Below are positions 12,722 to 33,991 of a stretch of DNA of 64,000 bases, in pieces. Origin of the DNA: Agrobacterium vitis. Lineage in GTDB: Bacteria; Pseudomonadota; Alphaproteobacteria; Rhizobiales; Rhizobiaceae. The position numbers and the translations under genes are program-made. Each line of letters opens with the position of its first letter. Position 1 is the stretch's first letter. Location of the stretch: NCBI RefSeq assembly GCF_013337045.2, contig NZ_CP118260.1:744001-808000 (forward strand), in the 5' to 3' direction. The notes below the pieces were generated by a model. That model did no database searches. It saw nothing but the letters and a program-made list of their open reading frames with translations, and was not told where the DNA came from.

Positions 12722-14257
12722 ATGTCGAAACTCAACCTGCCTGCCGATGTATCGCGCATTCTTGCAAATCTCGGTGTTTCCGCCGGGACTTTGTCGGGCG
12801 GTTCGCTGGCGGTCACATCGCCTGTGGATGGCAGCACGCTTGCAACGCTTGCAACGGTGTCCAGCGATGAGGCAAGCAAGGCCATCGACAATGCACATGC
12901 CGCTTTCTTAGCGTGGCGCCTGGTGCCAGCCCCCAAGCGCGGCGAATTGGTGCGCTTGCTGGGCGAGGAGTTGCGCGCGCATAAGGACGATCTTGGTCGT
13001 CTCGTGTCCATCGAGGTTGGTAAGGTCACCTCTGAGGGGCTCGGCGAAGTGCAGGAAATGATCGACATTTGCGATTTCGCGGTCGGCCTGTCGCGTCAGC
13101 TTTACGGCCTGACCATCGCCACCGAACGCAGCGAACACCGGATGATGGAAACCTGGCATCCCCTCGGCGTCACCGGCATTATCTCGGCCTTTAATTTCCC
13201 GGTCGCCGTCTGGTGCTGGAATGCGGCGCTGGCACTGGTCTGCGGCAATTCGACCGTTTGGAAGCCCTCGGAAAAGACGCCGATTACCGCCCTTGCCACC
13301 CAGGCGATTTTCGAAAAAGCCGTCCGCCGTTATGTGGCCGCTGGCGGCAGCGCGCCGGACGGGCTTTCGACCGTGCTGATCGGTGAGCGCGCTATTGGCG
13401 AAGTGCTGGTGGATCATCCAAAAGTGCCATTGGTTTCGGCCACCGGTTCGACAGCCATGGGCCGGGCGGTCGGTCCGCGTCTGGCGGCCCGATTTGCCCG
13501 CTCGATCCTGGAACTGGGTGGCAATAACGCCGCAATCGTCGGCCCAACTGCCGATCTCGACCTGACCCTGCGCGGCGTCGCCTTTGCCGCCATGGGCACG
13601 GCTGGCCAGCGCTGCACAACGCTTCGCCGCCTGTTCGTGCATGACAGCGTTTACGACACGTTGGTTCCCCGGCTGATCAAGGCCTATGGCTCCGTCACCA
13701 TCGGCAATCCGCTGGAGACCGGCACGCTGGTTGGACCGTTGATTGATGGCAGCGCTTATGAGGCGATGCAAACGGCGCTGACTGCGGCAAAGGCTGCTGG
13801 CGGCGTGGTGCATGGCGGCATGCGCGTGCGGGAAGAAGAGGCTGCCTCGGCCTATTATGTGCGCCCCGCCCTGGTGGAAATGCCCTCACAGACCGGGCCT
13901 GTGAAGGATGAAACCTTTGCGCCGATCCTCTATGTGATCCGCTACAGCGATTTTGATGCCGCATTGGCGCTGAATAACGACGTGCCGCAGGGCCTGTCCT
14001 CGTCGATCTTCACCAATGATCTGCGCGAAGCTGAAGCCTTCCTGTCGGACCGTGGCTCCGATTGCGGCATTGCCAATGTCAATATCGGCCCATCCGGTGC
14101 TGAAATCGGCGGCGCGTTCGGAGGCGAGAAGGAAACCGGTGGCGGGCGCGAATCCGGCTCGGATGCCTGGAAAGCCTATATGCGCCGCGCCACCAATACG
14201 GTGAATTTTGGACGCTCGTTGCCCTTGGCCCAGGGCGTGAAATTCGACGTCGAGTAG
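12722..14257 (+). CDS. amaB: Piperideine-6-carboxylate / aminoadipic semialdehyde dehydrogenase (ALDH7)
   Basis: 511-aa NAD-dependent aldehyde dehydrogenase of the antiquitin (ALDH7) clade. General-base Glu264 lies in LELGGNN and catalytic Cys298 in AGQRCTT; both are ALDH7 forms of the motifs. It would convert alpha-aminoadipic semialdehyde to aminoadipate in lysine breakdown. The ATG at 12722 has AAGGAAAG upstream; a second ATG at 12689 does not. The gene follows the FAD oxidase by 59 bp, giving an oxidase/dehydrogenase pair. Substrate specificity is inferred from clade and context. Confidence 0.82.
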   Translation: MSKLNLPADVSRILANLGVSAGTLSGGSLAVTSPVDGSTLATLATVSSDEASKAIDNAHAAFLAWRLVPAPKRGELVRLLGEELRAHKDDLGRLVSIEVGKVTSEGLGEVQEMIDICDFAVGLSRQLYGLTIATERSEHRMMETWHPLGVTGIISAFNFPVAVWCWNAALALVCGNSTVWKPSEKTPITALATQAIFEKAVRRYVAAGGSAPDGLSTVLIGERAIGEVLVDHPKVPLVSATGSTAMGRAVGPRLAARFARSILELGGNNAAIVGPTADLDLTLRGVAFAAMGTAGQRCTTLRRLFVHDSVYDTLVPRLIKAYGSVTIGNPLETGTLVGPLIDGSAYEAMQTALTAAKAAGGVVHGGMRVREEEAASAYYVRPALVEMPSQTGPVKDETFAPILYVIRYSDFDAALALNNDVPQGLSSSIFTNDLREAEAFLSDRGSDCGIANVNIGPSGAEIGGAFGGEKETGGGRESGSDAWKAYMRRATNTVNFGRSLPLAQGVKFDVE

Positions 14258-14270
14258 TCAGTCGTTGCCC

Positions 14271-14294
14271 TCCCCCCGGCGGTAACCGGGGGGA
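14271..14294. terminator. Stem-loop between convergent genes
   Basis: TCCCCCCGG and CCGGGGGGA form a perfect 9-bp stem around a six-base loop, between the ALDH7 gene and the convergent dehydrogenase. There is no clear T tract, so it is a probable bidirectional terminator rather than a certain one. Confidence 0.6.
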
Positions 14295-14306
14295 TGGTTG
14301 AGACCG

Positions 14307-15179
14307 CTAGTCCTGAATAGGCTGAATCTGTTGCAGCCAGAGATAATAGGCCGAGTGGTCGAGATCTGCGCCGCCTTTGTTCTGCACCAGGTCGGTGAAG
14401 CCCGCCCGCACCGTTTCAGAGAGTGGCAGTGTCAAATCGTGCTCGGCAGCAACCGAAAGCGCATTGTTTAAGTCTTTCAACTGCGCGGCGGAACGTCCAC
14501 CCGGTGTGAAATTGCCGGTCACCATCCGTTCGCCATGCAGATCGAGAATTCGGCTATCGGCAAAGCCGCCCCGCAAGGCGCCGCGCAGCGTTGCCGGATC
14601 GCATCCCGCCGATTGTGCCAGCCGAAAGGCTTCCGCAACCGCGCCGATGGTGACGGCGACGATCAACTGATTGGCGAGTTTGGCCGTCTGGCCGGTGCCG
14701 ACCGGCCCCATCAGCGTCGGGCGGCCCAGTTTTTCGAGAACCGGCACGGCAGCCTTAAAATCCTCCGGCGCGCCGCCAACGAAAATCGACAGCGTTTTTG
14801 CCTTGGCCCCAGCCACGCCACCGGAGACGGGGGCGTCGAGGAAACGCTTGCCCATTTGCTTGGCTAGCGCCGCAAGATCGCGGTCGCAGGCCGGTTCCAC
14901 CGATCCCATATTGATAATCAGCGCGCCTTCGCCCGCCGCTGCCATTGCGCCGCTGTCGTCCAGTGTCGCGCGGGTGGCCGGGCCATCGAGCAGCATGGAA
15001 ATCACCACATCCGCACCTTTGGCGGCGTCTGCCGGGCTGGCGGCAATGCGGGCGACGTCGGACAAGGCCTGCGCCTTTTGTGTGGAGCGATTCCAGACCA
15101 CGACCTCGAAATCCGCCGCCAGATGACGGGCCATTGGCTCTCCCATCAAGCCAGTGCCGAGAAAGGCGATCCGCATCAT
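14307..15179 (-). CDS. 3-hydroxyisobutyrate dehydrogenase-like beta-hydroxyacid dehydrogenase
   Basis: 290-aa NAD(P)-dependent dehydrogenase. The N-terminal nucleotide site is FLGTGLMGEPMARHL, the substrate loop DAPVSGGVAGAKA lies near residue 120, and the catalytic Lys is in GTGQTAKLANQL near 170. The family includes 3-hydroxyisobutyrate, tartronate semialdehyde and related reductases. It overlaps the upstream GlcG-like gene by four bases. The operon is divergent from an SMP-30 lactonase, suggesting sugar-acid metabolism, but the substrate is not known. Confidence 0.85.
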   Translation of the reverse strand: MMRIAFLGTGLMGEPMARHLAADFEVVVWNRSTQKAQALSDVARIAASPADAAKGADVVISMLLDGPATRATLDDSGAMAAAGEGALIINMGSVEPACDRDLAALAKQMGKRFLDAPVSGGVAGAKAKTLSIFVGGAPEDFKAAVPVLEKLGRPTLMGPVGTGQTAKLANQLIVAVTIGAVAEAFRLAQSAGCDPATLRGALRGGFADSRILDLHGERMVTGNFTPGGRSAAQLKDLNNALSVAAEHDLTLPLSETVRAGFTDLVQNKGGADLDHSAYYLWLQQIQPIQD

Positions 15180-15595
15180 GACAGGTCCGCTCCGATGGCG
15201 GCAAGGGCCGCGCGCGCCACCTCTTCGTCCTGCTCACCCGAGCCGGAGCCGATCCCGATCCCACCAAGCAACATGCCGTTGACTTTAATGGGCAGGCCGC
15301 CCTTCAGCCCCGTCGCTTCGCCTTGGGTTGCTGCGGCCAGCAACAATTTGGCGTGGTCGGGAACGCTATGGCTGGGCGCGGCAAGCGAGGCTGCGGTCCG
15401 CGCCTTGGCCCTCGCACTTTTAAGGGAGAGATAGCGCGAACCCCGCATGCGAAACGAAGCCAGTTCTACGCCGCTGTGGTCGACAATGATAATGCATTGC
15501 GGCTGGCCCATCGCCGTCGCGGCATCGATTGCGGCGCGCAAAAGTGCGGCGACACCTTCGTCGGTCAAGGCGCTGGATTGTATCGTAAAGCTCAT
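15176..15595 (-). CDS. GlcG/HbpS-family protein
   Basis: 139-aa small protein of the GlcG/HbpS (DUF336) family. Recognizable segments are CIIIVDHSGVELASFRM, the central alanine-rich helix around KARTAASLAAPS, and the Gly-rich end GGIGIGSGSGEQDEEVA. Members bind haem or accompany glycolate and sugar-acid genes; the biochemical role is mostly unknown. AGGGAGA lies seven bases before the ATG. It is translationally coupled to the following dehydrogenase. Confidence 0.8.
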   Translation of the reverse strand: MSFTIQSSALTDEGVAALLRAAIDAATAMGQPQCIIIVDHSGVELASFRMRGSRYLSLKSARAKARTAASLAAPSHSVPDHAKLLLAAATQGEATGLKGGLPIKVNGMLLGGIGIGSGSGEQDEEVARAALAAIGADLS

Positions 15596-15759
15596 GGCAT
15601 GCTCTCCCTTGGCAGTTTCTACCGGTCATGTTATCGATACCATATTCGAACCGGTCCAGATTGGCGAGTAGGAATGGGTGTTTCACCGATCACCGTCAGT
15701 TTGATTTTTCGAACCCGAATACCAAGTCCAGACTATCAAGTGTTGGGAGGCGCTCCGTC

Positions 15760-16650
15760 ATGTCGTTCTTTGAGATCTCCGATCCCGCCTTTGGCCGGTT
15801 TGTGATGGGCAATGCCCCGGTCAAGCAATTGGCAACCGGTTTCGATTGGGTGGAAGGACCTGTCTGGTTTGGCGATCTGGATTGCCTGCTGTTTTCCGAC
15901 ATCCCCAACAATCGTATCCTGCGCTGGACGGCGGATGGCAGTCTCACCACCTTTCGTGCACCCTCCAACTTTGCCAATGGCCATGCCCGAGACAGGCAAG
16001 GGCGCTTGGTCAGTTGTGAACACCGTACACGGCGCGTGACCCGCACTGAGTATGACGGCACGATCACAGTGATTGCTGACAGCTTTGAGGGTAAGCGTCT
16101 CAATTCACCCAACGATGTAATTGTGGCTTCCGATGGGGCGATCTGGTTCAGCGATCCGCATTACGGTATCGCCACCGATTATGAAGGCACGAAAAGCGAG
16201 CAGGAATTGCCCTGCAATGTCTACCGTGTCGATCCATCCGGGGCGATTTCTGCCGTGTTGACCGATTTCAACTGCCCAAACGGACTAGCCTTCAGCCCGG
16301 ATGAAAAACGGCTTTACGTGGCCGATACCGGCCGTATGCATAGCAGCGATCCGCAGCATATTCGGGTGTTCGATGTCGATGACGGATGGAAGCTAACCGG
16401 CGGCAACGTGTTTCATGTGATCGACAAGGGCTGTGCCGACGGCATGCGGCTTGATAGCGACGGCAATCTCTGGTCCTCGGCTGCCGATGGCGTCCACTGT
16501 ATCGCCCCGGACGGTCATTTGATGGGCAAGATCCTGGTTCCGGAAACGGTCTCCAATCTCTGCTTCGGCGGGCGTGGCAAGCATCGATTGTTCATAACCG
16601 CAACAACCAGTCTCTATGCAATTTCCCTGAACCGGAACGGTGCAGCCTGA
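15760..16650 (+). CDS. SMP-30/gluconolactonase-family lactonase
   Basis: 296-aa six-bladed beta-propeller of the SMP-30/LRE family, which opens sugar lactones. Family segments are the metal-ligand Glu in DWVEGPVWFGD, NSPNDVIVASDGAIWFSDP in the middle, and NGLAFSPDEKRLYVADTG near residue 180. The ATG at 15760 follows GGGAGG at nine bases; an earlier in-frame start at 15628 would run through the shared promoter. It is divergent from the GlcG/dehydrogenase pair, so the three may belong to one sugar-acid pathway. Confidence 0.85.
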   Translation: MSFFEISDPAFGRFVMGNAPVKQLATGFDWVEGPVWFGDLDCLLFSDIPNNRILRWTADGSLTTFRAPSNFANGHARDRQGRLVSCEHRTRRVTRTEYDGTITVIADSFEGKRLNSPNDVIVASDGAIWFSDPHYGIATDYEGTKSEQELPCNVYRVDPSGAISAVLTDFNCPNGLAFSPDEKRLYVADTGRMHSSDPQHIRVFDVDDGWKLTGGNVFHVIDKGCADGMRLDSDGNLWSSAADGVHCIAPDGHLMGKILVPETVSNLCFGGRGKHRLFITATTSLYAISLNRNGAA

Positions 16651-16670
16651 CAGGATCTGTCAAGCAAAGG

Positions 16671-17948
16671 TCAGGCCGACCATTTGTTTTTCACGCCAAG
16701 GCTTTCGATTGCAGCAATAGCCATAGCGATCCCGTCTTCTGCCCGCATGCGTTGACCAAGGTCTGCTGCGTGACGGCGCATATCGTCACCGTCGGCAGAG
16801 ATAATTGCCGAGGCTAAGGCATCTGAGGTCAAGGCAGCACGGTCCAGTGCTGGCGGAGCAACGCCGAGTTTTTCAAGGCGACTGCCCCAAAATGGCTGAT
16901 CGCCAAAGAATGGCACAACCACCGAGGCAATGCCAGCACGTGCCGCAGCGGTCGTCGTGCCAGCGCCGCCGTGGTGAACCGCCAGCGCCATTCTCGGAAA
17001 CAGCCAGTCATGCGGCGCTCGGTCAATCCGGAAGATATTGCCCCCGGCCTCGCTATCCGCGCCATTGAGGCCGCCCCAGCCACTGGCAAGCACAATGCGT
17101 TTGCCCGTCTTGCGTACCGCTTGCAACACGATATCGGTGAAGCGGCCTCCATCCGGCCCAACCATGCTGCCGAAGCCGACATAGACGGGTGGTGGCCCGC
17201 CTTTTAGAAAATTTGTCAAATCATCCGGTGCGACCCATGTCGAGCCTTCCTGTAATTGCCAGGGGCCGGTGACCCGGACATTGGAGGGGAGCGAGGCGGG
17301 CGGCTCGACCAGTGTCGGGCTATAGGCAAACAGCCGCAAATGCGAACGGGGTTTATAGGTATAGGGACCGCGCCATGGATAAGGCGGCAGCCGAAGGGCC
17401 GGACGCACCACCTCATTATAGGCGGGGCGCAAAATATGCCAGATCAGCATCTGCGTGGCATGACCGAGAGCCACATTGATTGGTCCCGGCAAGCTCCTCG
17501 CCCAATCCGGCAGCGGCAGAAGCGGTGGTTGCCGCGACGGTAGGGTGGGAACCAATTGCGTTTCCGCGACAGGCAGGCCCAGATATTCGCCAAGGGCTGC
17601 GGCGAGATGGAACACCATACCATTGCCAATCAGCAGATCGGCACCCTCCGTTGCCCTAAGGCCTTGGGCCGGCCAACTGGCGGCCATGGTTTTCAGCTTC
17701 CGCCGCGCTGCCTTGGCAATAGCAAGCGGTGAAAGGCCCTGGGACATCGCAGTCCGGTCGGTGCGCATCCAATCGAGGAAATCGCCACGCAAGGGGGCGA
17801 ATTCCAAGCCGTGATTGGTGACGAGATCGGCGCATTGCGGATCGGTGGCAATTCTGACCTTGTGACCGGCCTGTTTTAACCCAACGCCAAGAGCAACCAG
17901 CGGGCGCACATCGCCTTCGGTGCCAATCGTGAATATGACGATCTGCAT
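16671..17948 (-). CDS. UGT/MGT-type glycosyltransferase (GT1)
   Basis: 425-aa GT-B transferase. The N-terminal FTIGTEGDVRPLVALGVGL motif and the C-terminal donor-binding block VHHGGAGTTTAAARAG followed by PFFGDQPFWGSRL are those of GT1 enzymes that glycosylate sterols, rhamnolipid precursors or macrolides. The acceptor cannot be deduced. It lies downstream of an AHL-type LuxR gene on the same strand, with a long imperfect dyad in the gap, so quorum control of a glycolipid or similar product is possible. Confidence 0.85.
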   Translation of the reverse strand: MQIVIFTIGTEGDVRPLVALGVGLKQAGHKVRIATDPQCADLVTNHGLEFAPLRGDFLDWMRTDRTAMSQGLSPLAIAKAARRKLKTMAASWPAQGLRATEGADLLIGNGMVFHLAAALGEYLGLPVAETQLVPTLPSRQPPLLPLPDWARSLPGPINVALGHATQMLIWHILRPAYNEVVRPALRLPPYPWRGPYTYKPRSHLRLFAYSPTLVEPPASLPSNVRVTGPWQLQEGSTWVAPDDLTNFLKGGPPPVYVGFGSMVGPDGGRFTDIVLQAVRKTGKRIVLASGWGGLNGADSEAGGNIFRIDRAPHDWLFPRMALAVHHGGAGTTTAAARAGIASVVVPFFGDQPFWGSRLEKLGVAPPALDRAALTSDALASAIISADGDDMRRHAADLGQRMRAEDGIAMAIAAIESLGVKNKWSA

Positions 17949-18054
17949 GGTTTACTCATTCACCAGATAATGATGCCTGACATTGGCACCCGACATTGGA
18001 CACATTCTAAAGCGGCTATTGGGCAAATCACCCAATGCACCATGCAAGTTTGGA

Positions 18055-18092
18055 GTTGCAATGTGCCAACGCCAGCGACTTGGCACTGCAAC
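18055..18092. repeat. Long imperfect dyad between LuxR and glycosyltransferase genes
   Basis: GTTGCAATGTGCCAA (18055-18069) pairs with TTGGCACTGCAAC (18080-18092), with two unpaired bases. A separate hairpin, ATTGGG/CCCAAT, lies at 18018-18036. The ten-mer TGTTGCAGTG within the dyad (minus strand, 18084-18093) recurs upstream of the LuxR gene at 19155-19164. It may be an operator or the LuxR transcript terminator. Confidence 0.4.
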
Positions 18093-18157
18093 ACGTCAGT
18101 AGTTCAGCCCGACTCCCCCTATCAAGCCTAAGAGGACTTTAGTCAGCAACTATGACA

Positions 18158-18982
18158 TCAGGCTCGGCTGGGCATGGCCATTGTGGCTTTTCGTCCGTCG
18201 CCCGACTGAAAACGGTCGGTCTGGATCAATCCAAGCATGATTGCCTTGACGACGGCCTGGGTACGGTTGACGGCTTCCAGCTTCCGCTTGACCGACTCCA
18301 TGTAAAATTCGACCGATTTTTCGGAAATGCCGAGGATCTTGGCAATTTCCCATGATGACTTGCCTTTGGAAACCCAGATCACGGTTTCCTTTTCCCGTGC
18401 CGACAGGAAGGACCGACGGCGGCGATAGCTGCCGATCAGATGCTCTTCCATGACAACTGGCAGCGCGCAGGAATGAAAGAATTGCGAGATAATGTGAATA
18501 AGATGCGCTTCCGGCGGGCTGTCCTGGAATTTTTCGTCGGGGATAACAGTCATGATCGCCAGTTCGCCATGGCGGGACATGAGAGGCACGGTCAGCCCGT
18601 TGGCGATGCCACGCTTTGCAGCCTCTTCGATCATGCCACGTTCTTCTTCCGTCAGCTTATCGCGATCGATGGCATCGCTCCACTTGAACGGGGTCTTGCG
18701 AGAGAGAGACATTCCAACGATGGGATCGCAATAGACATACCGCTCTGATGCGTATCGCTCCACCCATTCCTCTGGATAGTTGCTGATGCCGAATGTATGG
18801 CGGGTCTCATTCGTGGCATTGAGCACAGGGGTTTGAAGGATATGATAGGAAAAATACTTGTAACCCAGTGATTTTATACTGGATTCCATTACTGCTTTCA
18901 TCTCCGCGGCAGAGGTGGCGGCATTGAGGCGCATAATAAAGCGATCGAGAGGATCTACGGTCTTATGTTTGATGTCATGCAT
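18158..18982 (-). CDS. LuxR-family quorum-sensing regulator, AHL-binding type (solo)
   Basis: 274-aa LuxR protein. The N-terminal autoinducer domain has all six conserved AHL-pocket residues with the spacing of TraR/LuxR: Trp73, Tyr77, Asp86, Pro87, Trp101, Gly129. The C-terminal LuxR HTH spans about 200-260, with GKSSWEIAKILGISEKSVEF. The ATG at 18982 follows GGAG; an in-frame TTG five codons upstream is less likely. No luxI-type synthase is in the window, so this may be a solo receptor for self or foreign AHLs. The next gene on the strand is a glycosyltransferase. Confidence 0.88.
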   Translation of the reverse strand: MHDIKHKTVDPLDRFIMRLNAATSAAEMKAVMESSIKSLGYKYFSYHILQTPVLNATNETRHTFGISNYPEEWVERYASERYVYCDPIVGMSLSRKTPFKWSDAIDRDKLTEEERGMIEEAAKRGIANGLTVPLMSRHGELAIMTVIPDEKFQDSPPEAHLIHIISQFFHSCALPVVMEEHLIGSYRRRRSFLSAREKETVIWVSKGKSSWEIAKILGISEKSVEFYMESVKRKLEAVNRTQAVVKAIMLGLIQTDRFQSGDGRKATMAMPSRA

Positions 18983-19613
18983 GAAATAAAACTCCAAATC
19001 GTCACTTCGTGAAATTTTTAAGGCCGGGCATCCAGGATCGGGAATTGGGAGGACTGGAAAGCCCGCAAATATAAAATTCAGAAAATGCTGTTTTAATATT
19101 GGAAAATAAATGTATCTATTGGTGGTGCTTGAAAATGTGTTGTATTATGCGTCATGTTGCAGTGTAGCATTTACAAGCAAGGGGTCAATGTCAATTTGAA
19201 ATTGAAACGGGTCAATTTCAATGGAAATAAAATCTGAACATTGACGCCTGCCACGCCCGTATGGTGCGTTTACGATTGGCGACTGCCCCAGATCAGGTCA
19301 GTTTTACGCGCGCAAATTTCGTGTTTGTGGTCTGTTGTGGCACGAGCCGTGCTGTGACTCTAGGCGTTTTTAGGGGTGAATTCGCTTGTTGCAACGCAAA
19401 ATCATCCAAGAAATATAATGTATTACAGCATCCTCTGTGCGGTTTATAAAACGTGCGGCTCTGTCAGAGGTAGCCATAAATGCCTGCCACCAATTCCGGC
19501 GCCAGCCTTGCCGCGTTCGGCTTGCGAATATGCTCAGGCATTTGACCGCCTTGAGCATATTCACCGAAGCCGTCGGCAGAGTTTGCCCTGCCGACTCTCG
19601 TGAGGACTTTTGC
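18983..19613. other. 630-bp non-coding region with several inverted repeats
   Basis: No convincing gene; the short ORFs here lack ribosome sites and family features. The left part is AT-rich and is the LuxR promoter region. It holds the palindrome TCAATTTGAAATTGA (19191-19205), followed by GTCAATTTCAATGG. On the right are an 11-bp perfect inverted repeat (GAATATGCTCA 19526-19536 / TGAGCATATTC 19552-19562) and an 8-bp perfect stem (GTCGGCAG 19572-19579 / CTGCCGAC 19588-19595). The right-hand hairpins lie just past the lysA stop and may end its transcript. Confidence 0.6.
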
Positions 19614-20864
19614 TTATGCCGTTGTTTCAAGCGCCAGCAGGTCGTCCAGGGTCTGGCGCCTGCGAATCAGCCGATGGTTATCCCCCTCGACCAGCACCTC
19701 CGGAGCATAGAGCCTGCTATTATAGTTAGATGACATCGATGCGCCATAGGCGCCGGTGTCGTGAAAGACCATGTAGTCGCCCGTTTGCGCTTGCGGCAAG
19801 TCGCGTTTTTCGATTGTCCCGAATTCGCCCTGGGTGAAGACATCGCCGGATTCGCAAAGCGGTCCTGCCACCACTGTCGGCACCAGCACGTCGCTGCGCG
19901 GTGCGCTATTATTCGCGGCGGGCAAGACGGAAATGCCGTGATAGCTGCCATACATCGCCGGGCGGGCCAGATCGCTGAACCCGGCATCGACAAGGATGAA
20001 ATGATTGTTGCCCATGGTTTTGGTGGCGCGGACCTCGGCCAGCAGCACGCCTGAATCCGCCGTCAGGAACCGGCCCGGCTCGATTTCGAGCCGGATCTTG
20101 TGGCGCAGATATTCCTCGATCTGTTTGCGGGCGCTATCCCAAAGCGCGAAATAATGGACGGTATCAATTTCTTCCTCGCCGTCCTTATAGGGGATGGATA
20201 GTCCGCCACCCGCTGAAATCGCCTCGATATCGGCGCCAAGCTCGCAGCAGAACGTTACCATGGCTCCGCAGACCCGTTGCAGATGCCGGTAATCGACACC
20301 GGAGCCGATATGCATATGCAGGCCGACCAGCGTCAGCGAGTAGCGCCGCACGGCGGCCAGCGCCTCGCGCAATTGCTCGAACCAGATGCCATGCTTGCTG
20401 TTTTCGCCGCCGGTATTGGTCTTGTTGCTATGGCCGTGGCCGAAGCCGGGATTGATGCGCAGCCAGACGCGATGCCCCGGAGAGCGTGCGCCAAGTTGAT
20501 GCAGCATATCGATGGAGCCAGCATTGACCTCGATTTTGTCAGTGACAACCCGATCCAGTGTGCTGCGATCAAACACATCGGCGGTGAAGACGATGTGGGC
20601 AACGCCGGAGGCCTGACCCGCGCCATAGCCCGCCCGTCTGGCCCGCTCGATTTCACCTAGCGTCACGGCATCGACGACCACCCCGGCTTCACGCATCTGC
20701 CGCAGGATATGGGTGTTGGAGCAAGCCTTTTGGGCAAAGCGAATGACATCGAAGGATGACAATTGCGCTATACGGGCGCGGATCGTGTCTGCATCATAGA
20801 CCCAGACCGGTGTTCCGTAGGTTTGCGCAAGCGTGGTGAGTGTGTCGTTTGAAAGGCGTGTCAT
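19614..20864 (-). CDS. lysA: Diaminopimelate decarboxylase-type PLP enzyme (E. coli LysA-like)
   Basis: 416-aa fold-type III PLP enzyme. All decarboxylase hallmarks are present: PLP Lys46 in RFAQKACSN, HMHIGSGVD, SAGGGLSIPY, EPGRFLTADSGV, the catalytic Cys in GPLCESGDVF, and GAYGASMSSNYNSR. The sequence closely resembles E. coli LysA as I recall it. No Shine-Dalgarno is evident at the ATG. It lies downstream of siderophore genes but is separated from them by a terminator. It may supply lysine, or act as the stand-alone epimerase or decarboxylase of the siderophore pathway, a role suspected for VbsL in vicibactin loci. Confidence 0.8.
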   Translation of the reverse strand: MTRLSNDTLTTLAQTYGTPVWVYDADTIRARIAQLSSFDVIRFAQKACSNTHILRQMREAGVVVDAVTLGEIERARRAGYGAGQASGVAHIVFTADVFDRSTLDRVVTDKIEVNAGSIDMLHQLGARSPGHRVWLRINPGFGHGHSNKTNTGGENSKHGIWFEQLREALAAVRRYSLTLVGLHMHIGSGVDYRHLQRVCGAMVTFCCELGADIEAISAGGGLSIPYKDGEEEIDTVHYFALWDSARKQIEEYLRHKIRLEIEPGRFLTADSGVLLAEVRATKTMGNNHFILVDAGFSDLARPAMYGSYHGISVLPAANNSAPRSDVLVPTVVAGPLCESGDVFTQGEFGTIEKRDLPQAQTGDYMVFHDTGAYGASMSSNYNSRLYAPEVLVEGDNHRLIRRRQTLDDLLALETTA

Positions 20865-24878: not shown

Positions 24879-24903
24879 GACGAATGAGTGCATCCCGAAT
24901 TCA
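24879..24903 (-). promoter_or_regulatory. ECF-type promoter of the acyltransferase-MATE operon
   Basis: On the minus strand TGAATT, ten bases, then TCATTCGTC. The hexamer serves as the -35 element and CGTC as the -10 element. It lies about 80 bases before the start codon at 24797. The same bipartite sequence with identical spacing occurs on the plus strand at 24941-24965, while the spacer bases differ, which argues for selection. Confidence 0.75.
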
Positions 24904-24940
24904 CATGTATCGTGAAATTTAATTTTCAAAAATTTTCTTC

Positions 24941-24965
24941 TGAATTTTGCAGCCTGTCATTCGTC
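24941..24965 (+). promoter_or_regulatory. ECF-type promoter of the NRPS-oxygenase operon
   Basis: TGAATT, ten bases, then TCATTCGTC, identical in both conserved blocks to the minus-strand element at 24879-24903. It lies about 160 bases upstream of the NRPS start, giving a long AT-rich leader. The PvdS-type sigma factor encoded at 30856 is the obvious candidate to read it. Confidence 0.75.
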
Positions 24966-25126: not shown

Positions 25127-28100
25127 ATGACAATTCATGATCGGGCAACGACGGCCGCATCAATCGCCAAAACCGGATTCAATGAGGGGCACGCATGGCC
25201 CTTATCATCGCAGCAATCGCGGATCTGGCTTTTGTCGCAGGCGGGGCATGAGGCGGTCTATGGACGCCAGTCAATCGGCTTTCGCTTCGCGCCTGTTGGG
25301 GGTGATCGAATACGCGTTATAGTTGATTTTCTGATGCATCGTCATCCCTTGCTGACCCGTCGCTTTGAAGTGCGGGCGGGCGGGACCGTTTATCAGTTGC
25401 TGGGCCAAAATGCCGTGCCAGTTGTTGAGCGTGAGCTTGCAAAGGGTGAGGAGCTGGAGACTGTATTAAGGGAGGTTTCTGCCGCCTATTCCGACAGAGT
25501 GCTTGATCTGGAAACGGATGCCGCCGCTCAATTTACGCTGTTTACGGCAGGCGGACGGTTGATTGGCGCTCTGTTGTCATTGCATCCTCTGATTGGTGAC
25601 CGGGCGGCCCTGGACCGGTTGGCCGTCGATTTCCTCTATGGGCTTGATCGACAGGTTGATTTAGGGCGTCAAGATGCGGGTTTGTTTGATGTCGGGCAGT
25701 GGCTGACTGAACGTGCCGCAATCGCCCAGACATCAGATGCCGACACCGATTTCTGGTTTGAGCGCTTAGCTGCGCAGGAGACGGTGGCGATGCTGCCATC
25801 CCAGGCTCCAGCGGCAGGCGTGACAAGTTCTGATCAGCAGGCATGGCGCGAAAAACTCGTCGAGGTCGGGTGCTCTGCCTCTACTTCCGTGGCGGATGTG
25901 ACACATGACAGCCTTGCGGCGCTGGCCATTGTACTGCGTCGCTATAGCGGCTGCGGTGCCCAGCGGATCGGGCTGGTAACGCGGCAAGCCGATTGCCCGG
26001 TTGCGACCCGCACAGAAGATCTGTTGCTCGTCACCAGCGAGATCGACGGTCGGTTGGCTCTCAGTGCAGTGCGCGAGCGGCTGGTCGAGGGTGTTGCCAC
26101 CGCGCTGTCCCACCATTTGCCGTTCGAAGCGCTGACGAATGCCCTGGCGCGGCGTGATGATGGATTCGAGGCGGCCAGCCTTGTTGCAACCGTGCTGGAT
26201 GTGCGGCCCGCCCTGCAACTGGAGGCCCAGGTTCTGGCCGGTCAGCCGGTTGCCGTTCTGGTGGAGCCGCCTGCGCGGCGCGATGCTGGCCTGGTGGTTA
26301 CCGTTTCCGGCCTGGATACGGAGAGATTGGCGATCCGGCTGGGCTACGATCCGAAAAGCCATAGTGATGCAATGATCGAGCGGTTCGCCCGCGATCTTAG
26401 CCTAGCGTTCGAGGCCCTGCGGGGTCAGCCGGAACAGTTGGTCAGCGCGATTGTTTTCATGCCGGTTGAAGAACTGGAGCGACTGTCAGCGCCCTATCCC
26501 GATCAGCCGGAGATTGATGACGGCACGCCGATCCATCAGGTGATTTCGGCGCAAGCGCAGCGCAGACCTGAAGCTTTCGCGGTGGCCCAGGGCGATACGT
26601 CGATTACTCATGGTGCGCTGGAGGCCGCCGCCAATCGGCTCGCTCATCGGCTTGTTGCCATGGGGATCGGCCCGGAAGACCGGGTCGCCGTGGCGCTGAA
26701 CAAATCCATTGACGCGATTATCGCCATTCTGGCGGTGTTGAAGGCCGGTGGCGCTTTTACCCCGGTCGAGCCGGATCATCCCGAGGCCCGCAATCGTCAT
26801 ATCCTGAGCGCGCCGGGGCTGGCGCTGGTGATCTCGCGCAGCCGGTACATCACCGATCTGCCGCGTGATATCGGTACGCCGATCCTTAATCTCGACAAGC
26901 TCGATCTATCCTCGGAAAGCACCGAGCCGCCGGTCATCGCCATTGCACCGGCCCAGCTTGCCTATGTGATCTACACCTCCGGCTCCACCGGCATCCCGAA
27001 GGGTGTTGCCGTTGAGCATGGTCCGTTGGCGCATCATTGCAAGGCGACGCTGCGCATCTATGAAATGGATGAGAATTCCTGCGAATATCCGGTCCTGCCC
27101 TTTACCTCGGATGGTGGCCATGAACGCTGGATGGTGCCGTTGATGGCGGGAGGCGGCGTGGTGCTGACGGCGGATAAGCTGGCGACGCCGGAAGATGCTT
27201 TCGCGCTGATGCGCAGGCACGGCGTCAACAATGCCAGCCTGCCGACCAGCTATGTCAGAGGCCTTGCTGAATATGCGGCGGAAAAGGGCGGGATACCGCA
27301 GTTGCGGCTCTATTCCTTCGGCGGCGAAGCGCTGTCTCAGGCGGTTTTCGATCTGCTGACTGATAATCTCAAGGCGCAGATGCTGATCAACGGCTATGGG
27401 CCGACCGAAACCATCATGACGCCGATGGTGTGGAAAATTCCGGCGGGAACGCGGTTTGAGGGTACGGTTGCACCGATTGGCCGGGGTGTCGGCGACCGCC
27501 GAATCTATGTGCTGGACAGCGATCTGGTGCCAGTGCCGGTCGGGGTGATCGGCGAGATCCATATCGGCGGCAGCGGCATTGCTCGTGGCTATCTCGGCCA
27601 ACCGGAGCTGACGGCGGAGCGTTTCATCGATGATCCGTTTTCCATCCATGGCGGACGGATGTACAAGTCCGGCGATCTGGGCCGCTGGCGTGAAGATGGC
27701 ACGGTAGAGTTTGCCGGCCGGGTCGATCACCAGATCAAATTGCGTGGCTATCGCATTGAGCCGGGCGAAATCGAGGCGGTGTTGCGCGCTGATCCGAATG
27801 TGTCGGAAGCCGTGGTGCTGCTGCATCAGGATAGCGGACGCAGCGCGCTGATCGCCTATGTGGTGGCCCGGGAAGATGAGGACGTGAACGTCAACGATCT
27901 TCGCCGCGCCGCCGTCACCGCCCTGCCGGATTACATGGTGCCGCAGCATATCATGGTGCTGGATGCGTTGCCGATGGGACCGAACAGCAAGCTCGACCGC
28001 AGCGCTTTGCCGCTGCCGAAGCTGCAACGTGATATCGTTCCACCTGCCAATGGCAAGGAATCCGCCATTCTGGAGGTCTGGAAACAGATCCTCGATATCA

Positions 28101-29110
28101 CCGAACTCAGCGTGACCGAAAACTTCTTCGATGTCGGCGGCCAGTCGCTGGCGGCAGTGCGGATCGTCTCGCGGCTGAAAATGCAGCATCCGAAATGGCC
28201 GCTGACTATTGCCGATATGTTCAACTATCCAACGGTGCGGGATCTGGCGCTGGCGATGGACGAAAACCGGCAGGAGGACAAGGTCGGGGCGATCTATCTG
28301 CGCCGCGACGGCGACCGTCCGGTGCTCTATTGCTTCCCGGGTCTTTTGGTCAGCACCCGTGAATATATGCGATTGGTGGATTATCTCGGGCCGAACCAGC
28401 CGGCCACCGGCTTCGTCTGCTATTCGCTGACCGAAACGCCAGCGCTCAGCACCAGGGTTGAGGATATTACCGCCCGCTACGCTGAAGCGGTGCGCAGCCA
28501 GGCCAAGGGGCGGCCTTGCGCCTTTCTTGGCTGGTCCTGGGGTGGGCTTCTTGCCTATGAGGCAGCGCAGCAGCTCGGCAATGACGTCGATCTTCGGATG
28601 ATCGGCATGGTCGATGTCTGCGACATGGGCGATGAATTTGCCATTGGCGTCTGGCCGCATTTCGAGCCTGGCGTGCGTGAGCGTACCCATGACGCCGTGC
28701 AACGCTGGCTGAAAGTGGCACCAATGCGCGAGGCTTGGCTGACGCTGATGGCGGCGATGGATGCCGAGGTTTACGAGCAATTCCTGCATCATATCGTCAA
28801 GCATAACGTGCCGCTGCCTATGGATGGGCCGGATATCGGCTCGGAAGAGCATATTTTCTGGGTTCTGCTCGATAACGCGATGATTTTCCGCAATTATCAG
28901 CTGAAAACCTCGCAGTTCCGCATCCATGCGTTTTCGGCTGAAGATTCGGTGACGCGGGGTCTCAGCGTTATCGACTGGCGACGCTATTCGCCCAATGCCA
29001 CCGCTTGCGAATTGGTGACTGGTACCAACCATCTGTCGATTATCGGCAAGTCCCGTTTCCATCAGCGCTTTGCCCGGCGGCTGGATCTCGCGATTCAAGG
29101 CAAGTCGTAA
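25127..29110 (+). CDS. Single-module siderophore NRPS (C-A-PCP-TE), VbsS-like
   Basis: 1327-aa non-ribosomal peptide synthetase. The condensation-like domain spans about 20-440, with first core SSQQSRIWLLSQ. Its HHxxxDG site is degenerate, reading LHPLIGDR near residue 153. The adenylation domain (about 465-960) has YTSGSTGIPKG near 615, GYGPTET, and KLRGYRIEPGEIE. The carrier serine is Ser1007 in DVGGQSL. The thioesterase has Ser1137 in GWSWGG. There is no epimerization domain. The adenylation pocket has Asp then Gly-Gly-His-Glu at the first specificity stretch, suggesting a modified amino acid. One module plus thioesterase fits iterative trimerization, as in vicibactin. The ribosome site is weak. 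Confidence 0.88.
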   Translation: MTIHDRATTAASIAKTGFNEGHAWPLSSQQSRIWLLSQAGHEAVYGRQSIGFRFAPVGGDRIRVIVDFLMHRHPLLTRRFEVRAGGTVYQLLGQNAVPVVERELAKGEELETVLREVSAAYSDRVLDLETDAAAQFTLFTAGGRLIGALLSLHPLIGDRAALDRLAVDFLYGLDRQVDLGRQDAGLFDVGQWLTERAAIAQTSDADTDFWFERLAAQETVAMLPSQAPAAGVTSSDQQAWREKLVEVGCSASTSVADVTHDSLAALAIVLRRYSGCGAQRIGLVTRQADCPVATRTEDLLLVTSEIDGRLALSAVRERLVEGVATALSHHLPFEALTNALARRDDGFEAASLVATVLDVRPALQLEAQVLAGQPVAVLVEPPARRDAGLVVTVSGLDTERLAIRLGYDPKSHSDAMIERFARDLSLAFEALRGQPEQLVSAIVFMPVEELERLSAPYPDQPEIDDGTPIHQVISAQAQRRPEAFAVAQGDTSITHGALEAAANRLAHRLVAMGIGPEDRVAVALNKSIDAIIAILAVLKAGGAFTPVEPDHPEARNRHILSAPGLALVISRSRYITDLPRDIGTPILNLDKLDLSSESTEPPVIAIAPAQLAYVIYTSGSTGIPKGVAVEHGPLAHHCKATLRIYEMDENSCEYPVLPFTSDGGHERWMVPLMAGGGVVLTADKLATPEDAFALMRRHGVNNASLPTSYVRGLAEYAAEKGGIPQLRLYSFGGEALSQAVFDLLTDNLKAQMLINGYGPTETIMTPMVWKIPAGTRFEGTVAPIGRGVGDRRIYVLDSDLVPVPVGVIGEIHIGGSGIARGYLGQPELTAERFIDDPFSIHGGRMYKSGDLGRWREDGTVEFAGRVDHQIKLRGYRIEPGEIEAVLRADPNVSEAVVLLHQDSGRSALIAYVVAREDEDVNVNDLRRAAVTALPDYMVPQHIMVLDALPMGPNSKLDRSALPLPKLQRDIVPPANGKESAILEVWKQILDITELSVTENFFDVGGQSLAAVRIVSRLKMQHPKWPLTIADMFNYPTVRDLALAMDENRQEDKVGAIYLRRDGDRPVLYCFPGLLVSTREYMRLVDYLGPNQPATGFVCYSLTETPALSTRVEDITARYAEAVRSQAKGRPCAFLGWSWGGLLAYEAAQQLGNDVDLRMIGMVDVCDMGDEFAIGVWPHFEPGVRERTHDAVQRWLKVAPMREAWLTLMAAMDAEVYEQFLHHIVKHNVPLPMDGPDIGSEEHIFWVLLDNAMIFRNYQLKTSQFRIHAFSAEDSVTRGLSVIDWRRYSPNATACELVTGTNHLSIIGKSRFHQRFARRLDLAIQGKS

Positions 29111-30480: not shown

Positions 30481-30513
30481 AGTATCCTGGCGAAAACTGG
30501 ATACTGGTTTTCG
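30481..30513 (+). repeat. Two overlapping hairpins after the oxygenase gene
   Basis: AGTATCC (30481-30487) pairs with GGATACT (30499-30505), and CGAAAAC (30491-30497) pairs with GTTTTCG (30507-30513). The two 7-bp stems interleave, so they are mutually exclusive. The segment also resembles the GAAAAGTGG...GGTTTTC element at 46490-46530. It directly follows the stop codon and may end the operon. Confidence 0.45.
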
Positions 30514-30767
30514 GCCCCTCGGCTGCGAACAAAACCCTATGGCGTCGTGCCGATTTCAATGTTCAGCACGATGCTATAGTCCGGGCCTATATTTGGCACC
30601 GCACCGCAAGGAATAGTGGCGGGACGGGAGTTGGCGTGGTGGATGCTAAGGCGTTTTTTGGGCATTTCACCTCTTTGCTTTTTCGCATATTGTATATTAA
30701 AATAATATTGAAAATCAATGGTTTGTTGTTGATTGACAGAAATGGAAGTGACCTCTCTGTTTTATCT

Positions 30768-30782
30768 TGACTAATTAAATCA
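30768..30782. promoter_or_regulatory. Iron-responsive operator candidate (TGA-N9-TCA) upstream of the ECF gene
   Basis: TGACTAATTAAATCA fits the TGA-N9-TCA IRO consensus bound by RirA in Rhizobium and Agrobacterium. It lies downstream of a TTGACA hexamer at 30733-30738 and 74 bp before the sigma gene, well placed for repression when iron is available. Confidence 0.6.
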
Positions 30783-30855
30783 TGTTTTTTAGTGTGCCCC
30801 GGAAATAAGGGGGGAATTCCACGGTTTCAATCTGGGATTTCAAGGCGAGCCCGAC

Positions 30856-31479
30856 ATGATAGCCAATATTTCGCAATCGACATGTGACGAACAGATAAAA
30901 ACTGCCCTGATGAACAAGTCGAAACTCCTGGGGGCCGCGCGGCGGATTACCGGGTGTGCCTCCTTGGCGGAAGACATCGTTCAGGAAGTGCTTTTGCAAC
31001 TTGTCGCAAAGCCATTGCCGCCGGATATTGCGGTCCCTGCATCCTATATGATGCGGATGGTGCGCAATCTCGCCACCGATCATATGCGTAGACTACGCTA
31101 TGAGCGAGGCCTGTTTGCCGTTGAGGAAGAGGGTGACAACACTTCTGATTACGGCAGCCCTGAAGAGCATTTGCGCGAGGTGGAAGCCTATCAGGCCTTC
31201 TGCTGCACCATGGAGGCTATGCCAGCCCGAACCCGCAAATTCTACGAGGACCATTTTTTCGAAGGGGTGCCACAAAATATCATCGCCAGGCAGGCGGGTG
31301 TCTCCTGCGCTTTGGTTTGCGGGTTGCTGCGTGATGCCCATGCGCAATGCCTGGCTGCCATCTGCCCGGATGGGGTGGAATGCCGGGCCTCGAGCCGCAA
31401 AGGTAAACGCGATACGTTGCCGACGCCCCCACTAAACAAGGAGGTGCACCCGCTCTATTGCAATCGTTCGGCGGCTTGA
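30856..31479 (+). CDS. rpoI: ECF sigma factor for siderophore synthesis (RpoI/PvdS-like)
   Basis: 207-aa group IV sigma factor. Region 2 covers about 18-95 (SKLLGAARRITGCASLAEDIVQE, then SYMMRMVRNLATDHMRRL). Region 4 covers about 130-185, with MPARTRKFYEDHFFEGVPQN. This is the iron-starvation class that activates siderophore genes in pseudomonads and, as RpoI, in Rhizobium leguminosarum. A FecR-type anti-sigma gene is absent nearby, as for PvdS and RpoI. An IRO-like box upstream suggests iron repression. It probably reads the two identical promoters between the NRPS and acyltransferase operons. Confidence 0.85.
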   Translation: MIANISQSTCDEQIKTALMNKSKLLGAARRITGCASLAEDIVQEVLLQLVAKPLPPDIAVPASYMMRMVRNLATDHMRRLRYERGLFAVEEEGDNTSDYGSPEEHLREVEAYQAFCCTMEAMPARTRKFYEDHFFEGVPQNIIARQAGVSCALVCGLLRDAHAQCLAAICPDGVECRASSRKGKRDTLPTPPLNKEVHPLYCNRSAA

Positions 31480-31618: not shown

Positions 31619-32101
31619 GTGATTGCTGTGCTTGTTATAACCGAATTGACCGCCGACAAGGGCGAAATTTGCCGCGACGTCATGTCGGAACTGTCCGACT
31701 GGTTTACGGAACCCGCCGTGATTGATGCCTGCGCTGCAGCGGCCGAGACCTTGGCGATGTTCGGCTGCCTTGACGGTGACACTGTGGCCGGATTTGTCAT
31801 GCTGAAACCGCATCTGCCCGATGCCGTGGAAATCGTGGCGATCGGTACCCGCCGGGCCTATCATCGCCAAGGCGCAGGCAGGCTGCTGTTGTCAGCGGCG
31901 GAGGATTTTGCCCGCAAAGCCGGTTGCCGACTGGTCACGGTCAAGACCCTGGCGCCGCGCGGCAAACAGGAACCGCAATACGATGCCACGCGCGCCTTCT
32001 ACGACCGGAATGGATTTATTCGTGCCGAAGTGTTTCCCACTTTGTGGCACGAGGATCATCCGTGTCTGATGCTTGTGAAGCCTTTGGCAGACGGGGATTA
32101 G
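31619..32101 (+). CDS. GNAT-family N-acetyltransferase
   Basis: 160-aa acetyltransferase. The acetyl-CoA binding motif is in the segment AIGTRRAYHRQGAGRLLL near residue 85, followed by the C-terminal AFYDRNGFIRAEVFP block. The start codon is GTG, with GAAAAG five bases ahead; an ATG at 31614 is out of frame. It lies between the ECF gene and fhuF. It might acetylate a siderophore intermediate in place of VbsC, but nothing in the sequence proves that. Confidence 0.75.
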   Translation: MIAVLVITELTADKGEICRDVMSELSDWFTEPAVIDACAAAAETLAMFGCLDGDTVAGFVMLKPHLPDAVEIVAIGTRRAYHRQGAGRLLLSAAEDFARKAGCRLVTVKTLAPRGKQEPQYDATRAFYDRNGFIRAEVFPTLWHEDHPCLMLVKPLADGD

Positions 32102-32151: not shown

Positions 32152-32937
32152 CTAGCGACGGCCATCAGGCAGGGGGCAGAGGTCGCCACATCCGGGAACG
32201 CCCGGCAGGTTATAGCGCAGGCAGCAGACCTTGCGTTGAAAATGGTCCATGCCGCATTGGCGGCGGGCCAGTTTGATCATGCCAAACAGCGGGTTGCGAC
32301 TGCCATCCGGCCAATGCTGGCCCGAGATGATCTCGATGGCCTCTTCCATCAGGTGCGGACCTGCCTGATTGCCGATTTCCTTGATGATCCAATTGAGATA
32401 GACGGCGACATTGTTCCACATTAGTTTTGGCGCAACGCCGCAATGCCCGGCAATCAGTGTAATCAGCGGCGCGGCGTGGTCGCGTAAGATCGCGTGGAGA
32501 TCGTTTATCGCGGCGTCCTGGCCAGCGGGGCGGCCTGGGCCTGAAAGCACGAACGCTTTTGGTTCGGCTGTTTTTGGATCACAGACCAATGAGAGCTGGG
32601 AAAGCCCGAGTGATAATTGCCGCCGATGCACCAGACGGTGCACCGTGGGCGTAATCGTCAATATGCTGAAATAATAGAGCGTCCACATCGAAATAACCGC
32701 ACGCCGATCAGCGTCGGGAAACTTGGACGTGTAGCGGGCTATGATATCGGCAAAGACATCCGGGTCGGCAAGCGAGGTGCAAGGGATAATCTCGGCATCG
32801 TCAGGCACCTCCAGCAGCAGCTTGCCCCGGCAAAAGGCAAAGCGGTCATCGCCCGGCATGTCGGGCGACCAGTCATCGTCGATGGGGGGCAGAACGCCAC
32901 GCACCGACGGCCTGGACATCTGGATCGTTGATCCCAT
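32152..32937 (-). CDS. fhuF: FhuF-type siderophore ferric reductase
   Basis: 261-aa cytoplasmic protein resembling FhuF, which releases iron from imported hydroxamate siderophores through a [2Fe-2S] centre. The C-terminal cysteine cluster reads KVCCLRYNLPGVPGCGDLC. Its spacing is C-C-x10-C-x3-C, one residue longer in the last gap than I recall for E. coli FhuF. The middle has VAPKLMWNNVAVYLNWI, typical of the family. The ATG at 32937 is preferred to an in-frame TTG at 32976. A TGA-N9-TCA box lies 80 bp upstream, so iron control is likely. Confidence 0.75.
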   Translation of the reverse strand: MGSTIQMSRPSVRGVLPPIDDDWSPDMPGDDRFAFCRGKLLLEVPDDAEIIPCTSLADPDVFADIIARYTSKFPDADRRAVISMWTLYYFSILTITPTVHRLVHRRQLSLGLSQLSLVCDPKTAEPKAFVLSGPGRPAGQDAAINDLHAILRDHAAPLITLIAGHCGVAPKLMWNNVAVYLNWIIKEIGNQAGPHLMEEAIEIISGQHWPDGSRNPLFGMIKLARRQCGMDHFQRKVCCLRYNLPGVPGCGDLCPLPDGRR

Positions 32938-33017
32938 GGTTTTTTCCGCCGCTTGATCGATTGCTTGCTGCAACAAACCGCAGATTAGAACGCCGATTTC
33001 CAGGCGTCAAGAAAACA

Positions 33018-33032
33018 TGATAATAATAATCA
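33018..33032. promoter_or_regulatory. Iron-responsive operator candidate between fhuF and the AraC gene
   Basis: TGATAATAATAATCA fits the RirA IRO pattern TGA-N9-TCA and is nearly palindromic. It sits about 80 bp upstream of the fhuF start on the minus strand. The AraC gene ends nearby at 33056, so fhuF is the likely target. Confidence 0.65.
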
Positions 33033-33055: not shown

Positions 33056-33991
33056 TTATGCGATTTCCTGCGCCGCCGTGCCTTTTGCCCGCATCCGGCG
33101 GCGATATTGGACCGGTTTTTCCATGAAACGGCGCTGGAATGCCTCGTAAAAGGTCGAGAGCGAGCCGAAACCGGATTCGTAGGCCACTTCGGTAATTGGC
33201 ATGTCGGAGGAAATCAGCAGCGATTGGGCCGTATCCAGCCGGTGGCGGATGATCGCCTGGTTGATGGTGGTGCCCACCGCACGCTTGAACAGGCTCATGG
33301 CATAGTTGGGATGCAGACCGGCGGCGCGCCCGACATCCTCGGCAGAAATCGTGTCGGGTGCGTGTTCGCCGATGAAGCGCAGCATTTTTTCCACATGCAG
33401 CATCCAGCCCGCATCGCGCTGGCCAAGGCTTGCCAGCGCCGATCCTTGTTCGCGCAGGTCGCGCCAGCCGTCGCGCTCGATGCGCATCAGGCGGGCGGTC
33501 AGTTCGGAGCGGACGATCTCGATATCGCCTTCATCCCCGCCCAGCAATTCATCACGCCAGCGCAGAAAGATTTCCCGGTCCCAAGCCCGCAGGTGCAAAG
33601 CCTCGATGACCGCACCCCGAAACACCGAATCGCGAAACTGGCTCAGGCTGGCCAATCCCAGAAACACCGACATCGGCACATAAAGACAGATGAAGCGAGT
33701 GCCTTCCCGCCGGTCGATGACCTGATGGGGGATCATCCCCCAGAACAGGCAGAGCCTGCCTTCCGAAATCGTCAGCTCCCGTCCGTCGAACCAATAGGTC
33801 ATCGCGCCTTCCAGAACGAAGTTCAGCTCGATCTGGCTGTGCATATGCGGCCCAGCCATCTTCTGGACGTCCATCAATTCCCCCGCGCAGAAGCTGTTAT
33901 CGCCGAATACAACCAAGGGGTGGGCCGGATCGCGCTCGGGGTGTACAGGTGTTGCACCAAGTCTGTTGATCAAGGGAGGACGTCGAGCCAT
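33056..33991 (-). CDS. AraC-family regulator of the galactoside operon
   Basis: 311-aa regulator. The N-terminal cupin-like sensor spans about 40-130, with PHMHSQIELNFVLEGAMTYW. The C-terminal pair of helix-turn-helix motifs spans about 215-300, including ISAEDVGRAAGLHPNYAMSLFKRAVG and ITEVAYESGFGSLSTFYEAFQRRF. It is divergent from an operon with alpha- and beta-galactosidase, like MelR or AgpT for alpha-galactosides. The 265-bp gap between the two is the shared control region. Confidence 0.87.
   Translation of the reverse strand: MARRPPLINRLGATPVHPERDPAHPLVVFGDNSFCAGELMDVQKMAGPHMHSQIELNFVLEGAMTYWFDGRELTISEGRLCLFWGMIPHQVIDRREGTRFICLYVPMSVFLGLASLSQFRDSVFRGAVIEALHLRAWDREIFLRWRDELLGGDEGDIEIVRSELTARLMRIERDGWRDLREQGSALASLGQRDAGWMLHVEKMLRFIGEHAPDTISAEDVGRAAGLHPNYAMSLFKRAVGTTINQAIIRHRLDTAQSLLISSDMPITEVAYESGFGSLSTFYEAFQRRFMEKPVQYRRRMRAKGTAAQEIA

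Follow-up and report, generated by a model that had tools for sequence, protein, structure and literature searches.

Do the two matching sequences that lie on opposite strands of the gap between two divergent siderophore operons of Agrobacterium vitis form a pair of promoters and, if so, which sigma factor reads them? The original prediction, drawn from the letters of a 64,000-nt stretch of DNA (hereafter the window, meaning this whole stretch), held that both strands of the gap carry TGAATT-N10-TCATTCGTC, that a PvdS/RpoI-type sigma gene lies in the same locus, and that the pair reveals the recognition sequence of this sigma factor. This reading is right on the sequence and, from the comparisons reported here, most likely right on the meaning of the pair: with a probability that we put at roughly 0.9, the two copies would be a divergent pair of promoters under an ECF sigma factor whose gene lies 5.9 kb to their right and which would make both operons fire together.

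A Vicibactin-Like Cluster around a Divergent Gap

By its predicted gene content, the locus is a vicibactin-like siderophore cluster with an ECF sigma gene, and its gene set matches the vbs (vicibactin) set of R. brockwellii; the single vbs letters used below are those that we presume for the window genes. On the minus strand, the left operon opens with a VbsA-like acyltransferase (Acetyltransf_8, PF13523; 23640..24797) and continues with a MATE efflux transporter (PF01554; 22240..23640) and a PLP-dependent Cys/Met-type enzyme (PF01053; 21056..22243), which we take to stand at the VbsD and VbsL positions, respectively; a LysA-like PLP decarboxylase on the same strand (19614..20864), syntenic in several related clusters, is a candidate operon member. 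On the plus strand, a VbsS-like NRPS with the Pfam domain order C-A-PCP-TE (25127..29110; 45% identical to the R. brockwellii NRPS) is followed by a VbsO-like lysine/ornithine N-monooxygenase (PF13434; 29164..30480), the sigma gene (30856..31479), and a VbsC-like GNAT acetyltransferase (31619..32101; 59% identical to its R. brockwellii counterpart), after which a siderophore-iron reductase gene, fhuF (32152..32976, TIGR03951 above cut-off), returns to the minus strand. The corresponding order in R. brockwellii is MbtH-NRPS-monooxygenase against acyltransferase-MATE-PLP enzyme, and a hydroxamate cluster with vbs-like genes is also mentioned for the bean symbiont R. tropici CIAT 899 in PMC3557214. 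Two regulator-type genes stand close by, one for an AraC-type protein near the cluster (33056-33991) and one for a LuxR-type autoinducer-binding regulator adjoining it (18158-18997). A one-direction relative of the cluster, with MATE, PLP enzyme, GNAT, monooxygenase, and sigma genes, was also seen on a Pseudosulfitobacter plasmid (L115:22-6495).

Rhizobium-type clusters carry a relative of a phosphopantetheinyl transferase between the monooxygenase and sigma genes; at the corresponding place in the window (30481-30855), no match to it was found and there is just a 375-bp gap. Two cluster-type TonB-dependent receptors have no match in the window. A search of the genome with one receptor query found three relatives at 27-36% identity, the nearest of which lie on contig 1 (G000:C1:2584673-2594920) and share 35-36% identity with the receptor of R. 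brockwellii.

Two Outward-Pointing Candidate Promoters

Both strands of the gap carry the predicted blocks with 0 mismatches. The leftward candidate promoter (24879..24903, minus strand) has its -35 element TGAATT at 24903-24898 and its -10 region CATTCGTC at 24886-24879, and would probably serve the acyltransferase/MATE/PLP operon; the rightward one (24941..24965, plus strand) has TGAATT at 24941-24946 and CATTCGTC at 24958-24965, again an exact match, and would probably serve the NRPS/monooxygenase operon. Both sites are retained in related clusters. The term "head-to-head," by which the pair had been described, fits the genes and not the promoters, because the -35 boxes lie on the inside, separated by 37 bp, with the -10 boxes flanking them, such that the two promoters diverge. 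The 37 bp between the -35 boxes (24904..24940) have an A+T content of 78% (gap as a whole, 64%; window, 42%) and could possibly act as an UP element shared by both promoters.

From the last base of CGTC, it is 82 bases to the candidate start codon of the acyltransferase (24797) and 162 bases to that of the NRPS (25127). A longer acyltransferase starting at an upstream TTG, whose frame would cover the left site, was rejected in favor of the ATG, because this ATG is kept in all 12 clusters checked and an in-frame stop lies at most 60 bases upstream of it in 6 of these 12.

Throughout the genome (6,084,750 bases on five contigs), TGAATT-N10-TCATTCGTC has two exact copies, both in the siderophore gap, on opposite strands, and each pointing outwards. 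When up to two mismatches are allowed, there are nine matches, against three for the backwards pattern, and the gap pair is the only exact one among the nine; the shorter core TGAAT-N14-TTCGTC has three matches, namely the gap pair and one other (control: one).

Conservation of the Pair and Its Association with the Sigma Gene

Could such a pair be the product of chance, or of a recent duplication without function? Two observations lean that way, the first being that in the window itself the number of matches with up to three mismatches (two) is what shuffling yields (mean 2.02), and the second that 13 genomes lacking a close sigma relative each have a single exact match to the refined motif described below. 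We nevertheless regard this explanation, to which we would give scarcely any credence, as already refuted by conservation, judging from the sequence comparisons that follow.

The first of these comparisons covers 16 window-type clusters: the window, four loci of sigma relatives, five plasmid loci, and six loci from family genomes. The plasmid loci are five of the seven matches above 50% identity, the apparent near-duplicates H2 and H6 being left out; the G289 stretch was also left out of the set, as it was taken to be already counted. Of the 16 clusters, 14 have both sites with at most one mismatch to TGAATT-N11-CRTTCGTC, a motif that was itself derived from part of the loci counted here, and 24 of the 28 sites of these 14 paired clusters match it exactly. 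The relatives thus keep a core slightly different from TGAATT-N10-TCATTCGTC. Among the 25 distinct sites of the paired clusters, which were drawn solely from clusters passing the one-mismatch cut and for that reason cannot show larger departures, TGAATT, the first C, and the TCGT of the -10 region are invariant, while the spacer is variable, with less than 1 bit at 9 of its 11 positions. Fixed cores with varying spacers speak against chance and against a recent duplication. In three clusters, the right-hand site has CGTT instead of CGTC. The geometry is retained as well: the -35 boxes are 33-37 bp apart in 13 of the 14 paired clusters and 22 bp apart in the other one, with a mean A+T content of 76% between them over all 14. 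A third site with zero or one mismatch was found in none of the 17 cluster loci (415,592 bases).

The two exceptions to the pair also have the most diverged sigma proteins. In G202, whose sigma is 55% identical, only the left site is present, with one mismatch, and the best right-hand match has four mismatches; in the gap of S. meliloti Ak57, whose sigma is 52% identical, no site is recognizable and the best matches have six mismatches. The Ak57 cluster (L048:7500-7724, 14001-18248) also has an IS30 transposase beside its receptor gene, and the annotated start of its sigma falls inside the region of protein similarity; this copy of the cluster may be decaying.

The second comparison covers 394 family genomes, in which the motif was scanned for and, in the same draw, the sigma protein was searched for (a close relative being a match with E below 1e-30). 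TGAATT-N11-CRTTCGTC has 25 exact matches in 20 of these genomes, when the backwards control has two. A close sigma relative is present in eight of the 394 genomes; the motif occurs in seven of these eight and in 13 of the 386 others (Fisher p 2.2e-9, a value that ignores kinship, the eight sigma-bearing genomes belonging to four genera and not being independent). All 12 exact matches in the seven sigma-bearing genomes sit in the acyltransferase/NRPS gap, and exact divergent pairs occur in five of the 394 genomes, each of which bears the sigma, an association that speaks against a chance origin.

Outside the gap, the picture is less tidy. The 13 genomes that carry the motif without a close sigma have one match each, none of which lies beside cluster genes, and five of the 13 have distant sigma relatives. 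In the seven sigma-bearing genomes, there are 19 one-mismatch matches, two of which are the gap partner sites of G189 and G369. Chance, as gauged by the backwards control, is not sufficient to account for all matches outside the gap, because both the single exact ones in genomes without a close sigma (13 vs. 2) and the one-mismatch ones in sigma-bearing genomes (17 vs. 4) exceed it. At the 12 of these 17 one-mismatch loci that were scanned, no cluster genes or receptor relatives turned up among those searched. Four of the five other loci are occurrences of one match, which begins with TGTATTC, is near-identical in the four sigma-bearing genomes concerned (G000:C1:2620825, G289:C22:946045, G297:C11:321618, and G189:C5:8336; one mismatch each), and looks like conserved coding sequence. 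We treat the matches outside the gap as not belonging to the circuit, and some of them may serve other sigma factors as promoters. The expectation that genome-wide hits would be limited to iron genes is borne out for the exact sites, with a few unexplained one-mismatch sites elsewhere. As exact sites are found at one divergent pair per genome only, the regulon looks small, and the circuit appears to have two targets only.

Which Factor Reads the Pair?

The sigma gene announced for this locus is indeed there: it encodes an RpoI/PvdS-like ECF sigma factor of 207 aa (30856..31479, plus strand), which matches PF04542 in region 2 only and TIGR02937 (sigma70-ECF) above cut-off over residues 20-165, its best NCBIfam model, NF005448, staying below its own cut-off. 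The closest named relatives found are those of Agrobacterium vitis strains (97%) and Allorhizobium taibaishanense (82%), when identity to R. brockwellii RpoI is 29%; in a tree of 21 sigma proteins, a clade uniting the window-type proteins with RpoI is neither supported nor rejected (p-AU 0.143). No anti-sigma gene was found beside it among the adjacent genes, which encode the monooxygenase and the GNAT acetyltransferase.

Several cysteines of this protein caught our attention. From the end of region 4.2 (window 31348-31383), C165-x4-C-x5-C is found in three Allorhizobium-type sigmas (P0001, P0002, and P0003), when the other aligned relatives keep C165 and miss the second Cys, a few of them having one later Cys; this arrangement is reminiscent of the Cys cluster with which OrbS senses iron (PMC9023288). 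Two further cysteines, 151 and 155, lie within the presumed -35 recognition helix, SCALVCGLL (window 31306-31320); among 18 aligned sigmas, RpoI (L049) has neither of them, and the S. meliloti protein (L048) is without Cys 151.

The pair could, in principle, be the ECF promoters of another sigma factor of the same genome, for example of the second sigma-like match that we detected, a FecI-like protein on contig 3 (C3:613202; 29% identical). We hold this to be very improbable, as the presence of the motif follows the cluster sigma across genera and R. leguminosarum-type clusters combine a sigma of their own with a pair variant of their own. Somewhat less improbable, though still a clear outsider, is the explanation that a DNA-binding regulator (for example the AraC-type protein encoded at 33056-33991, or RirA) binds the two copies as inverted operators and that the operons are transcribed from ordinary sigma-70 promoters. 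The inverted arrangement, the center-to-center distance of about 18 bp between the two conserved blocks, and the proximity of an AraC-type gene would all suit a regulator; however, the motif has the layout and spacing of ECF -35 and -10 elements and co-occurs with a sigma gene. For RirA in particular, 12 of the 17 gap sequences that we looked at, including that of the window, have no TGA-N9-TCA; in four of the five others, this motif arises solely from the CGTTCGTCA end of the left-hand site. Recognition by the cluster sigma is the reading that we retain: the claim that the pair reveals the sequence recognized by this sigma stands insofar as the motif tracks the sigma gene across genomes, the core itself having had to be slightly redrawn.

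Iron Input and Proposed Circuit

RirA is a plausible regulator of the sigma gene itself. TGA-N9-TCA corresponds to the RirA motif according to PMC8822346, and a predicted IRO-type operator of this form, TGACTAATTAAATCA (30768..30782), lies 88 bp before the sigma start codon and overlaps a TTGACT hexamer; a second predicted site (33018..33032) lies 42 bp upstream of fhuF. As TGA-N9-TCA occurs 20 times within the 64,000-nt window, a single match means little, and it is the fixed position that carries weight. Of 23 distinct loci, 22 have the motif upstream of their sigma gene (11/11, 5/6, and 7/7 in three sets sharing one locus), the G189 cluster having no exact operator. The operator precedes the start by 79-89 bases in 15 of the 16 window-type loci; for the R. 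leguminosarum type, this distance is about 130 bases. For L043, L048, and L098, it was counted from the beginning of the protein match rather than from an ATG. The motif also stands upstream of two of the three receptor relatives of the genome, when a sigma box with fewer than four mismatches was found in none of the approximately 600-base regions upstream of these three.

In the circuit that we infer, with its sigma binding, transcription starts, RirA binding, and co-induction, RirA would sit on the TGA-N9-TCA operator and repress the sigma gene when iron is plentiful. When iron is low, this repression would be relieved, and the sigma factor would be made and join RNA polymerase. It would then recognize TGAATT as the -35 element and, about 16 bp away, the CRTTCGTC region (core CGTC) as the -10 element, such that the polymerase would fire both gap promoters at once. 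The acyltransferase, exporter, and PLP-enzyme genes would, under this proposal, be expressed together with the NRPS and monooxygenase genes. On this basis, TGAATT-N11-CRTTCGTC would be a precise candidate recognition sequence for the iron-starvation sigma of Allorhizobium/Agrobacterium vitis and its relatives, including R. tropici CIAT 899, for whose type of sigma we found no promoter description among the open-access papers listed. Within the titles and the beginnings of abstracts of those papers, we found neither a description of the TGAATT promoter sequence nor an account of the regulation of the A. vitis cluster.

Relation to Known Iron-Starvation Circuits

The design RirA–sigma gene–siderophore genes has precedents. 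In PMC6683767 and PMC8822346, RirA is described as regulating a sigma gene that in turn governs siderophore genes in the RirA-SigI system of Agrobacterium fabrum C58 and in the RirA-FecI system of Sinorhizobium fredii, respectively; the siderophore clusters of these two systems differ from that of the window, and the FecI system has a FecR anti-sigma, whereas the window sigma gene is followed by the GNAT acetyltransferase gene.

At the level of the promoter, the window sites resemble those of PvdS, OrbS, and MbaS, whose targets are likewise siderophore synthesis genes. The iron-starvation IS box is given as TAAAT-N16-CGT in PMC2235872, and the OrbS consensus ends in CGTC according to PMC4786211. 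Both window sites read TGAAT-N16-CGTC, so that they share with these promoters the 16-bp spacing from a five-base -35 element to CGT and the terminal CGT(C), when the -35 element is TGAATT instead of TAAA(T): the second base is A in the IS box of PvdS, OrbS, and MbaS and G in the 25 distinct window-type sites. OrbS and PvdS belong to ECF243. The input also differs, a Fur box controlling the PvdS/OrbS/MbaS-type sigma genes and a RirA-type site lying before that of the window cluster.

A close parallel is the RpoI-vbs system of R. leguminosarum, whose RpoI, to go by the title of Yeoman 2003 (in the reference list of PMC3420878), starts transcription at vbsGSO and vbsADL in vitro. As in the window, divergent acyltransferase and NRPS operons are separated by a gap with two promoter-like sites, the sigma gene is in the cluster, and TGA-N9-TCA stands upstream of it. 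In all seven R. leguminosarum-type loci (L049 and L105-L110, which are close relatives), TAAAY-N16-CGTC occurs on both strands of the gap, with the -35 boxes 34-35 bp apart. In the window cluster, by contrast, the NRPS gene is not separated from the gap by an MbtH gene, and the sigma gene has a different position. The promoter letters differ (TAAAY...GATC(C)GTC in the R. leguminosarum type vs. TGAATT...CRTTCGTC in the window type), as do the sigma proteins, which are 28-29% identical, and their presumed recognition helices (SRTLVNFMI in RpoI vs. SCALVCGLL in the window sigma).

Since the R. leguminosarum pair combines a similar geometry with the classical letters TAAAY-N16-CGTC, the window appears, from its sequence, to present a known circuit design in a different promoter "dialect." That the two cluster families share one architecture, with -35 boxes mostly 33-37 bp apart and a RirA-type operator, and that the two dialects arose because the sigma was replaced by a distant relative, with both promoters changing accordingly, or because sigma and promoters drifted together, is an idea that we put forward tentatively, as one that may well prove wrong. 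If it were true, these clusters would amount to a natural experiment on how the -35 specificity of an ECF sigma factor can shift (TAAAY vs. TGAATT) while the circuit stays unbroken, and a paired comparison with RpoI could reveal the sigma residues that read the differing -35 base.
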